Assembly: GCF_002742645.2 (NCBI RefSeq)
Contig: NZ_CP033875.1
Location: 2,148,001 to 2,212,000 of the forward strand
From: Caulobacter sp. FWC26
GTDB taxonomy: Bacteria; Pseudomonadota; Alphaproteobacteria; Caulobacterales; Caulobacteraceae
DNA: 64,000 nucleotides
Reading direction: 5' to 3'
Made by a program: the position numbers and the translations under genes
Notes under the pieces: generated by a model
Told to the model about the DNA's origin: nothing
The model's input: only the letters and a program-made list of their open reading frames with translations
Database searches by the model: none
In this document: positions 38,034 through 42,429 of the stretch, in pieces
Layout: the number at the start of each line of letters is the position of its first letter
Position numbering within the stretch: position 1 is the first letter of the stretch

Positions 38034-38215
38034 TCCCTCTCTCTTTGAGAGAGGGAGGGGCCCGCGCCGCAGGCGCGGGAGGGTGAGAGGTTGCAGCCCT
38101 TAAAGCCCTGGCCTGGATCGTCATTCGGCGGCGCGAACGCCGGGAAGGTTTATCCTCTCACCCTCCCACCGCTGCGCGGCGGGCCCCTCCCTCTCTCCAC
38201 GAGAGAGGGATTTTT
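38034..38215. repeat. Palindromic intergenic element, copy 1 (hairpin-capped inverted repeat)
   Basis: Both ends carry a 10-bp hairpin TCCCTCTCTC/GAGAGAGGGA (38034-38056 and 38188-38210), with A/T-rich bases outside. Inside are GC-rich hairpins in opposite orientation (CCCGCGCC with GGCGCGGG at 38061-38079, and its counterpart near 38168-38186). A 48-base stretch (38047-38094) recurs exactly at 41123-41170. It separates the ppk promoter from the hdaA stop, which abuts its right end. No coding capacity is evident. Confidence 0.8.
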
Positions 38216-40382: not shown

Positions 40383-41123
40383 ATGACCCTCTCCCCCGAC
40401 CTCCTCGCCTGGCGCGCCGACCTGATCCAGCCGCCGGGGCCGTTGAACGGTCTGGCGCGGGCCGCGCAGCAGCGGATCAACAGGATCATCCCCGAGAAGG
40501 TCCACGCCGCCATCACCACGGCCATCGAGGGCATGACGCGGGCGATGCTGACCGGGGCCGACTTCGCCACGGGCTCGCCGCTCTATAACCTGACGCTGGA
40601 CGAGCGCCGGGCGCGGGCGGCCAAGGCGATCGACGGCTGGAAGAAGACGGCCGCGGTCGAGGGCGGCGTCACCGGGGCCGGGGGCTTCCTGATGGCGGCG
40701 GCCGATTTCCCGCTGCTGATGAGCTTCAAGATCAAGCTGTTGTTCGAGATCGCCGCCATCTTCGGCCATGACGGGACGGCGCTGCCCGAGCGCCTCTTTA
40801 TCCTGCACGTCTTCGAGCTGGCCTTTTCCGACGGCGCGCACCGGGCCGGGGCGCTGGCGGCGCTGGACCACTGGGATTCCAAGCCCCATCCCCAGCACCT
40901 GGACGACTTCGACTGGCGGGCCTTCCAGCAGCAGTACCGCGACCACATCGACCTGGCCAAGCTGGCCCAGTTCCTGCCCGTGGTCGGCGCGCCGCTGGGG
41001 GCCATCGTCAACTGGCGGCTCGTCGAGAAGCTGGGCCACACGGCGGTGATGGCCTATCGGATGCGGGCCGAGCAGGGGGCTTATCCCCAGATTGGAACGG
41101 GCGCCGAAGTCCCTCTCTCCTAG
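40383..41123 (+). CDS. EcsC family protein
   Basis: A 246-residue protein of the EcsC family, named after a gene near the Bacillus EcsAB transporter and lacking a known activity. It has a basic N-terminal helical region and a glycine-rich amphipathic segment (TAAVEGGVTGAGGFLMAAAD), then FPLLMSFKIKLLFEIAAIFG and a C-terminal hydrophobic stretch (LAQFLPVVGAPLGAIVNW). No ribosome site is evident at the ATG. Its last codons and the stop lie inside the left hairpin of a repeat element, so the element has supplied the C-terminus (EVPLS). Confidence 0.8.
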   Translation: MTLSPDLLAWRADLIQPPGPLNGLARAAQQRINRIIPEKVHAAITTAIEGMTRAMLTGADFATGSPLYNLTLDERRARAAKAIDGWKKTAAVEGGVTGAGGFLMAAADFPLLMSFKIKLLFEIAAIFGHDGTALPERLFILHVFELAFSDGAHRAGALAALDHWDSKPHPQHLDDFDWRAFQQQYRDHIDLAKLAQFLPVVGAPLGAIVNWRLVEKLGHTAVMAYRMRAEQGAYPQIGTGAEVPLS

Positions 41124-41293
41124 AGAGAGGGAGGGGCCCGCGCCGCAGGCGCGGGAGGGTGAGAGGTTGCGGCTTTGACCGTGAAAGCCCCGCCCTTTCA
41201 GTTTCTTGTCAGGTCCTGCCTGGTCCGGAAAGGGTGTAACCCCTCCCTCTCCCAAGCTTTGCTTGGGTCCCTCCCTCTCCCTTTGGGAGAGGG
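41110..41293. repeat. Palindromic intergenic element, copy 2
   Basis: The left end is the same 10-bp hairpin as copy 1 (41110-41132), followed by 38 more identical bases to 41170. The right end is CCCTCTCCC/GGGAGAGGG (41273-41293) with CCCAAGC/GCTTGGG (41251-41267) inside. The middle differs from copy 1. The EcsC stop codon lies in the left hairpin loop. Confidence 0.8.
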
Positions 41294-41328
41294 GATTGGG
41301 TGGGCGTTTTCGCCGTTTCATCCCCGGC

Positions 41329-41354
41329 TTGAAAACCTGGCGTAGTCTCTATCC
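41329..41354 (+). promoter_or_regulatory. Possible promoter for the structured RNA candidate
   Basis: TTGAAAA (41329-41335) and TCTATCC (41348-41354) are spaced 12 bases apart, compatible with the Caulobacter vegetative pattern. A start near 41361 would lie just 5' of the first predicted helix. Confidence 0.35.
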
Positions 41355-41360
41355 ACCTCG

Positions 41361-41690
41361 TCGCGAGGAAGGGGCGCATGGCCAGCGACCATTTGCGGCG
41401 GCGGGGGGCGGTCGAGCGGGGACAGGTTCGAGGGGGATACTCGGACGGTCCGGGGATCTGGTTGCTGGCCAGACCCGCCCGCCGTCGGCGTGGTCGAGGG
41501 AAAGGGTTCGTCCCTCTTCGATCGCCGGGCGCTGCCGGAAACGGAAGCGCCCGGGTCCCGGTAAGGCCCGAACAGGGCCACCTTCCCGGGACGCTGGCGG
41601 ATAACGACTGCGCGGAGCGTCGGCTTCGTCGAAACGGTATTTATCAATCAACTCCGGACGGATGTCCGGCGCTCCGCGTCCCTTTCCAGA
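41361..41690 (+). ncRNA. Candidate structured non-coding RNA, unknown class
   Basis: No frame looks coding (Arg/Pro-rich), but the + strand folds on paper into a closed multi-branch RNA. P1 is 41367-41374 with 41680-41687 (8 bp, closing the ends). P2 is 41380-41391 with 41459-41470 (12 bp), with an inner hairpin 41427-41432/41440-41445. P3 is 41492-41501/41511-41523. P4 is 41525-41533/41546-41554 plus CCG/CGG, capped by a GAAA tetraloop. P5 is 41556-41561/41586-41591 with inner GGCCC/GGGCC. P6 is 41611-41619/41670-41678 (9 bp), stacked on 41654-41659/41664-41669. G-U pairs in P1, P2, its inner hairpin and P3 would be A/C mismatches on the other strand, so + is the RNA strand. I see none of the conserved cores of RNase P, tmRNA, SRP or 6S RNA. 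Confidence 0.4.
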
Positions 41691-41714
41691 CCTCCAGCGG
41701 CTAGCCGCGTGAGG
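41691..41714 (+). terminator. Hairpin following the RNA candidate
   Basis: CCTC-CA-GCGG (41691-41700) pairs with CCGC-GT-GAGG (41705-41714) around CTAG. No U-run follows, so termination is uncertain. Confidence 0.3.
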
Positions 41715-41723
41715 ATGATCTCA

Positions 41724-41828
41724 CTTGCCCCCACCTGACCGCTTCGCGGTCGTCCGCCCCCAAAGGGGGCGGAAGGACGCGCGCACCTTCTTCCCCCTGT
41801 GGGGAGGAGCGCGCAGCGCGGAGGGGCG
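41724..41828. repeat. Third palindromic intergenic element
   Basis: Hairpins GACCGC/GCGGTC (41737-41751) and TCCGCCCCC/GGGGGCGGA (41753-41773) are followed by a CCCC-TGTG-type hairpin and a CGCGC/GCGCG palindrome near 41806-41820. It resembles GC-rich dispersed intergenic units; together with copies at 38034 and 41110 it makes 41.1-41.8 kb almost wholly repeat or RNA candidate. Confidence 0.6.
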
Positions 41829-41846
41829 AGGGCCAGCGTGTCTACC

Positions 41847-42362
41847 CTAAAGCCTCAGCCCATAGACCCGCCGGTCGCGGCGTTCGCCGTCGCGGTGCAC
41901 GGCGCCGACGATGTAGCCGTCGGGGCGGAAGCCCAGCTTGGCCAGCAAGCGTTCGGCGGAGGTGTCGCCGACATGGACGCGGGCGGTGACGGTCTTGAGG
42001 TCGTCGGCGGCGATCTGGGCGAGCAGGGCGCTCAGGGCCTCCAGGCCAAGGCCCTGGCCCCAGCCCTCGCGGGCGATGGCGAAGCGGATCTCGGCGCTGT
42101 CGCGGCGGCGGTCGATGTCGAACAGCTCGCAGAAGCCGATGAAGGCGCCGTCGGCCGCGCGGCGGATGGCCCAGTAGGCGGCTTTCCCGCCGGCCATCTC
42201 CTCGACCTGGGCCGTCACGCGGGCGGTGACCTCGTCGGGATCCTCGATCGGCTCCTGGTCGAGGCTGGACATCACCTCGGCGTCGCTGAGGAACGGATAC
42301 AAGAGCGGCGCGTCTTCCACCGTCAGCGGGGCGATGATCAGGCGTTCGGTTTCGAGGATCAT
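41847..42362 (-). CDS. GNAT-family N-acetyltransferase (RimJ/RimL-like)
   Basis: A 171-residue acetyltransferase that uses acetyl-CoA. It starts MILETERLIIAPLTVEDA, and the acetyl-CoA pyrophosphate loop is visible in AREGWGQGLGLEAL (Q/RxxGxG/A-like). The late strand VHVGDTSAERLLAKLGFRPDG is typical of the RimJ/RimL type acting on protein N-termini or small molecules. The substrate is unknown. An AAAGGA site precedes the ATG. It diverges from secG. Confidence 0.88.
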   Translation of the reverse strand: MILETERLIIAPLTVEDAPLLYPFLSDAEVMSSLDQEPIEDPDEVTARVTAQVEEMAGGKAAYWAIRRAADGAFIGFCELFDIDRRRDSAEIRFAIAREGWGQGLGLEALSALLAQIAADDLKTVTARVHVGDTSAERLLAKLGFRPDGYIVGAVHRDGERRDRRVYGLRL

Positions 42363-42429
42363 GCGGTCCTTTGGTGGGGCTTATGGGCTTGCGTTGGCGC
42401 GGACGCTTCCCAGCTATGGCGTGCAGCCG

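Follow-up and report, generated by a model that had tools for sequence, protein, structure and literature searches.

A multicopy family of structured RNAs with constant ends and exchanged centres in Caulobacter and Brevundimonas

Positions 41353-41714 (+) of the window, i.e. the whole 64,000-nt stretch of Caulobacter sp. FWC26 DNA which was analyzed, are one copy of a multicopy family of structured RNA genes. The family is present in Caulobacter, Brevundimonas and one further genus of the Caulobacteraceae. Its members do not encode a protein, their ends are constant and their centres are exchanged between copies. That the family is a selected structured RNA is considered highly probable. The main reading goes further and is given a probability of about 0.5: the Caulobacteraceae would have a family of structured, non-coding RNA genes, each transcribed on its own, in which a constant chassis carries an exchangeable centre. 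A large folded non-coding RNA family of this kind in Caulobacter and Brevundimonas is apparently undescribed. If the family is transcribed, a genus that includes a leading model bacterium would make a large folded RNA which is absent from Rfam 15 and has up to 53 genes in one genome, and the hypothesis is directly testable in Caulobacter. The features of the window copy are listed in Table 1.

Table 1. Features of the window copy of the RNA family and of its upstream region (positions in the window).
Feature	Positions	Strand	Description
Promoter-like region	41321-41353	+	-10-like TAGTCT at 41343-41348; AAAC at 41333-41336; TCC-rich stretch near 41321-41328
Structured RNA, window copy	41353-41714	+	From 5' hairpin to 3' terminal hairpin; BLAST edges of at least 44 copies; fold z -5.12; fold kept in 79 copies
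Closing stem, 5' strand	41367-41374	+	Partner 41680-41687; canonical in 99-100% of copies; double changes at 3 of 8 pairs
Inner long-range helix, 5' strand	41381-41386	+	Partner 41593-41598; mean canonical 0.95; no double changes in 79 copies
Hairpin with loop around GGGGGATA	41426-41446	+	Double changes at 6 of 7 pairs, two of them significant
Variable hairpin	41457-41473	+	41457-41463/41467-41473; 0.88 canonical; double changes at 5 of 7 pairs, 4 significant
Long hairpin with GAAA cap (41538-41541)	41525-41554	+	Double changes at 12 of 13 pairs; mean canonical 0.80; GAAA in 65 of 79 copies
Conserved arm GGCC/GGCC	41565-41579	+	Canonical in 78-79 of 79 copies; double changes at 3 of 5 pairs, two significant
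3' module	41602-41678	+	Stem 41612-41619/41670-41677 around invariant GTCGAAACGGT, plus hairpin 41654-41659/41664-41669; alignment A1, model R1
Variable, nearly G-free single-stranded linker	41639-41651	+	G at most 5% per column versus 36.8% over the whole RNA (79 copies)
Closing stem, 3' strand	41680-41687	+	Partner 41367-41374
3' terminal hairpin without U tract	41691-41714	+	Pair 41700-41705 is GC in 34, AT in 23 and CG in 4 of 67; no terminator-like site

The initial annotation had proposed a structured RNA at about 41361-41690. The region was correct and the edges were slightly short, as BLAST of family copies placed the start of the conserved unit at 41352-41354 and its end near 41714. 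For the shorter interval, the minimum free energy (MFE) on the plus strand was -185.4 kcal/mol (z -5.12) and none of 100 shuffled sequences was as good; the minus strand reached z -2.96, likewise with none of 100 shuffles as good. The mean z was -3.19 on the plus strand versus -1.98 on the minus strand in 16 evenly sampled of the 79 aligned copies, with the plus strand lower in 13 of the 16.

For the predefined-fold test, the 110 pairs of the MFE fold of the window copy (41361-41690) were mapped onto 79 copies. These were the window copy and 78 others, obtained from 121 distinct full-length copies, of which 116 had less than 97% identity and 38 distant or short rows were left out. Covariation model and tests were our own scripts and not R-scape; significance was defined as E < 0.05 against 100 simulated alignments. 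Mean canonical pairing of the fold derived from the window copy was 90.5%, compared to 36-49% when the 3' partners were slid by 1-3 positions. Double changes occurred at 48 pairs, versus 27-37 in the slid controls, and 9 of the 110 pairs covaried significantly, versus 1-2 in the slid versions. When covariation was computed over all column pairs, no pair was significant among 116 sequences including distant, poorly aligned ones, and at most two pairs had an E of 0.05 or below among 78 sequences (one clear, one at about 0.05). Since covariation over all pairs is weak, the structural case rests on the predefined-fold test. As to homologues in which substitutions break the helices without compensation, named in the initial annotation as evidence against an RNA, the outcome of this test favours an RNA.

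Of the helices originally drawn by hand, three were confirmed, namely the closing stem of the two ends, the hairpin capped by GAAA (both Table 1) and a 9-bp long-range helix 41611-41619/41670-41678. In the 9-bp helix, canonical pairing averaged 0.97, dropping to 0.73 at the first pair, and 2 of 9 pairs showed double changes. A postulated 12-bp helix, 41380-41391/41459-41470, had to be given up, with a mean canonical pairing of 0.81 and a double change at 1 of 12 pairs; its bases have better partners in the inner long-range helix (0.95) and within the variable hairpin (0.88). The pair 41382-41597 of the inner long-range helix is broken in 19 of 79 copies. Four G-U pairs had been taken as specific for the plus strand. 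Three of them (41371-41683, 41428-41444 and 41493-41522) belong to helices with support, where A-U or G-C takes their place in other copies, whereas 41387-41463 was not upheld because the 12-bp helix containing it is unsupported. A candidate pseudoknot of GTCGC, 41360-41364 with 41385-41389, was 0.95 canonical with 0 double changes. Another one, GATAA/TTATC, was rejected (0.56 canonical).

Two open reading frames overlap the RNA, namely 41378-41704 (+) and 41318-41647 (-), with 108 and 109 codons. The initial annotation had regarded no ORF of this region as convincing and had named a conserved ORF as an observation against an RNA. On the plus strand, none was found: of the 79 copies, 12 keep the ORF open over 100 codons, the lengths of the copies fall into all three frames, and substitution rates are similar in the three codon phases (0.189, 0.162 and 0.163). 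Neither ORF had a match in Pfam. A short protein gene in either frame is therefore given next to no weight as an explanation, the presence of the two ORFs being the observation in its favour.

A promoter-like element just upstream of the RNA had been reported as well. In an alignment of 74 non-redundant upstream regions, anchored at the 5' end of the RNA, a -10-like element was conserved: its A was present in 94% and its last T in 98%. AAAC was likewise conserved at -21 to -18. Upstream of the window copy, no match to the sigma-70 consensus was found. Judged from this conservation, the RNAs of the family are probably transcribed from the promoter-like element, and a transcription start site is predicted near the 5' end. 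No terminator-like site and no U tract were found at the 3' end of the RNA. Taken together, the proposal of a structured non-coding RNA on the plus strand is supported by the z-score of the fold, the pairing in 79 copies, the absent coding signal and the conserved promoter-like element. In five copies of the own genome (L032, L034, L035, L036, L110), a further shared stretch was seen by eye about 60-120 nt before the RNA, comprising AACGCTCGG, GAAATCA and CACTTTTAC; this is perhaps a regulator site or an UP element.

The 52-sequence alignment A1 of the 3' module served to build a covariance model, R1. Two foldings compete inside the module. The hairpin 41654-41659/41664-41669 was 0.97 canonical with a double change at 1 of 6 pairs in the 79 copies and showed a GC/AU exchange in 20 of the 52 sequences of A1, whereas the competing MFE folding was 0.92 canonical with a double change at 1 of 11 pairs; the hairpin is preferred. 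The linker preceding it is nearly devoid of G: after GTCGAAACGG, G amounted to 4.0% in 220 contexts, and in the linker of a second type of the RNA (see below) to 4.5% in 16 contexts. Its length differs between copies, and its composition is conserved while its sequence is not (0.54 majority). Being poor in G though variable in sequence, the linker is read as selected to be an unpaired tether, which argues against a guide role.

The exchange of the centre was recognized at a site shared between species. The gene for the GNAT acetyltransferase downstream of the window copy was present in 64 genomes, and the best 30 loci were examined for a 3' module beside it. Among these 30, the module scored above 77 bits at 18 loci and 26-29 bits at 3 loci, and was absent from 9, two of which end at a contig edge, one of these showing the end of a second-type RNA. 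The low-scoring loci (26-29 bits) represent this second type (type II), which has both ends of the same architecture and a different core. By BLAST, it had matches in 52 of the 75 genomes of the genus including the own genome, a count which shared end sequences may inflate. For one example of the type II RNA, the MFE was not below that of shuffled sequences (z 0.02), which counts against the main reading.

Between tpiA (Pfam TIM) and the acetyltransferase gene, the RNA was found in five species; in G040, the two genes are adjacent with few bases between them and no RNA, which fits gain or loss alike. When G031 and G010 were compared at this site, identity was 80% upstream and 96% in the initial 70 nt; the 3' module and the end reached 83% and 86%, respectively. 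The centres were 54% identical, versus 52% for shuffled letters. The same was seen for the centres of G031 and G071 (55%, shuffled 54%) and of G010 and G071 (53%, shuffled 52%). As copies at the same site are alike at the ends and at the level of shuffled sequences in the centre, the ends are kept and the middle is exchanged. Clustering of 141 distinct elements by centre gave groups of 89, 17, 14 and 13 plus 8 singletons, at least two of which (L119, L226) are stretches of coding sequence that the anchor matched by chance; three (L277, L266, L269) of the 15 loci at the tpiA/acetyltransferase site were left out of the clustering. At least four kinds of centre therefore recur, one substituting for another on a constant chassis.

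The own genome contains 10 copies (R1 search, 150 candidates scored), in one of which (L038) the 5' half is replaced. This copy adjoins a cobalamin riboswitch (RF00174, 127.5 bits, L038:2002-2190, +). Within the genus, 51 of 75 genomes had R1 matches, with 1-53 copies each, and 24 had none, not all of the latter being free of the family, as some (e.g. G056, G057) match the second type by BLAST. The 24 genomes without a match to the 3' module indicate that the RNA is dispensable, another point against the main reading. BLAST with 41340-41710 gave matches in 59 of the 75 genomes, at several places per genome. At the level of the order, 34 of 299 genomes, belonging to 2 of 54 genera, matched R1 (strict filters; in each genome, 16 candidates were scored). 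A sensitive R1 search in 16 chosen genomes added a third genus (G101, 4 copies) and gave no match in 11. At the level of the class, 3 of 385 sampled genomes matched, all of them Caulobacteraceae. A pattern scan of named genomes returned at least 120 stretches, and among the 80 loci listed all but five were from Caulobacter or Brevundimonas. Those five were on two Alphaproteobacteria MAG contigs, in alpha proteobacterium L41A, in an uncultured Caulobacterales MAG and on one Methylobacterium contig; the last (L203) was dismissed as a chance match, having 15 bits with R1. Collections of phages, plasmids and viruses (IMG/VR, pattern search) gave no match. Many copies keep the same flanks across species. 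In G059, seven copies, many of them at contig ends, have equal scores and identical 3' modules. In three genomes (G046, G014, G058), strong (60-73 bits) and weak (33-43 bits) R1 matches occur side by side, which suggests further subtypes.

In the initial annotation, the conserved cores of RNase P, tmRNA, SRP RNA and 6S RNA had not been seen. The search of Rfam 15 agreed, as neither these nor 4223 other families matched at the gathering cut-off. Over 40900-42400 and 13 related loci, the cobalamin riboswitch beside L038 was the only match above the cut-off; matches to H19, MIR1437, MIR1858 and whalefall-1 at a relaxed threshold were taken as chance. ARAGORN predicted no tmRNA or tRNA genes in the window. 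Large, ornate bacterial RNAs are exemplified by OLE, GOLLD, ROOL and HEARO. The family resembles them in its size of a few hundred nucleotides, its many helices, its GNRA tetraloop, its stand-alone gene and a function which is not obvious. It differs in having no match in Rfam 15, in being multicopy with interchangeable centres and in being confined to one bacterial family in the samples searched.

No report of the RNA family was found in the open-licence literature, including the accessible portions of PMC4117421, PMC12559287, PMC11005374 and PMC3951458. The alphaR8 siblings SisA-D are, according to the accessible part of PMC12559287, multicopy Caulobacter sRNAs with a Rho-independent terminator and a UUUCCUCCCU core, for which that study found no common upstream motif. 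As far as described there, both are multicopy RNA families of Caulobacter, but the core of the Sis RNAs is absent from the window RNA, which has no U-tract terminator, and a shared upstream element is present here and not in the Sis RNAs. In C. crescentus NA1000, 133 ncRNAs have been mapped (PMC4117421, accessible text). These are likewise intergenic and of the same genus; the main text, to the extent available, describes no such family and does not contain the words "copies", "repeat" or "paralog". Single copies may sit unnamed among the ncRNAs mapped in that study.

Among the alternatives to the main reading, the strongest is a non-autonomous mobile element (SINE- or MITE-like). It would carry a promoter together with an RNA whose fold serves the propagation of the element, and would depend for its spread on a transposase or reverse transcriptase acting in trans. 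This is judged less likely than not. It would agree with a copy number from 0 to 53 inside one genus, with the equal-scoring copies of G059 and their identical 3' modules, with the sharp unit edges and with the presence or absence of the RNA between intact tpiA and acetyltransferase genes. The family also shares with MITEs and REP elements that it is a dispersed, intergenic, non-coding repeat in many copies. It departs from them by its own promoter-like element and its compensated long-range fold, and the terminal inverted repeat has at most 6 letters at the ends of the window copy, the one copy inspected. Many copies having the same flanks in different species likewise speaks against mobility, and so do the enzymes: the own genome, with its 10 copies, has no Y1_Tnp or RVT_1 match, Y1_Tnp occurs in 13 of 24 R1-negative versus 9 of 51 R1-positive genomes (kinship ignored) and RVT_1 in 3 of 24 versus 13 of 51. 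Both were rejected as partners, as no link with carriage of the RNA was seen in the 75 genomes. The two readings may also hold together, as a functional RNA gene which spreads as well.

The other explanations are far less probable. A repeat acting as DNA (REP/BIME-like or a recombination site), with hairpins mattering as DNA, is quite improbable: repeats resembling those at 41106-41300 and 41722-41830 recur at the loci of other copies and flanks have been exchanged between copies, so that copies recombine, but the supported helices have G-U alternatives, the plus strand folds better, the conserved promoter-like element is directional and the long-range closing stem has compensatory changes. 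Even less weight is given to a guide or tracr-like RNA of an RNA-guided nuclease or transposase (HEARO/omega-RNA-like). The variable single-stranded stretch inside an otherwise constant 3' module would suit such a role, whereas its being nearly G-free and variable in length is unlike a guide, no Rfam match was obtained and no nuclease gene was recognized beside the own copies when ORF translations were read. A cis-acting leader, i.e. a riboswitch or attenuator, could be expected to have the conserved fold with a terminal hairpin seen here; it is most improbable, because the gene next to the window copy is on the other strand and points towards the RNA, neighbours differ among the own copies, there is no U tract and a consistent downstream gene was not seen.

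Within the main reading, though with less confidence, the RNA may be viewed as a modular scaffold acting in trans. The chassis is formed by the promoter-like region, the 5' hairpin, the stem joining the ends, the conserved 3' module and the terminal hairpin, and carries the exchangeable centre. A shared partner could use as its handle the constant 3' module, which contains the invariant GUCGAAACGGU and the G-free single-stranded tether; this partner would most likely be a protein that binds RNA and prefers it unstructured and rich in A, C and U. The centre would confer its own specificity on each type, and the many copies would provide dosage. Naming Hfq or any other protein as this partner would be a guess. 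Ro60 was considered as a partner for a Y-RNA-like role and rejected, since a TROVE protein was found in 6 of 75 genomes, not including the own genome, and was unlinked to carriage of the RNA. A more speculative and rather doubtful extension is a changing repertoire of 10 to 50 RNAs per strain, whose centres would be swapped wholesale at fixed sites and offer different specificities on one shared handle. Such a repertoire would correspond, at the level of RNA, to polymorphic-toxin or variable-domain systems, perhaps with phages, rivals or a changing target on the other side of a conflict. Fixed ends with exchangeable centres are a pattern familiar for proteins; to our knowledge, it has not been described for any bacterial RNA.

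Upstream of the window copy lies a gene for an EcsC protein, and its 3' neighbours are a GNAT acetyltransferase gene followed by secG and pyrG. Reading of the ORF translations around the own-genome copies revealed no common neighbour gene. The upstream and downstream flanks of the window copy occur together in G069 (L045) and separately in G072, there beside two oppositely oriented copies (L002, L041), one flank each. From this, RNA copies have recombined and act as recombination points, and the RNA marks a rearrangement breakpoint at one place. Tandem or near-tandem copies, or 3' modules about 100-200 bases apart, were seen at L011 and at G018:C7:742579-742859 and G018:C7:1083995-1084171. The repeats on both sides of the window copy (41106-41300 and 41722-41830) are palindromic and REP-like; further occurrences lie at the loci of several other copies and, within the window, at 38034-38097.
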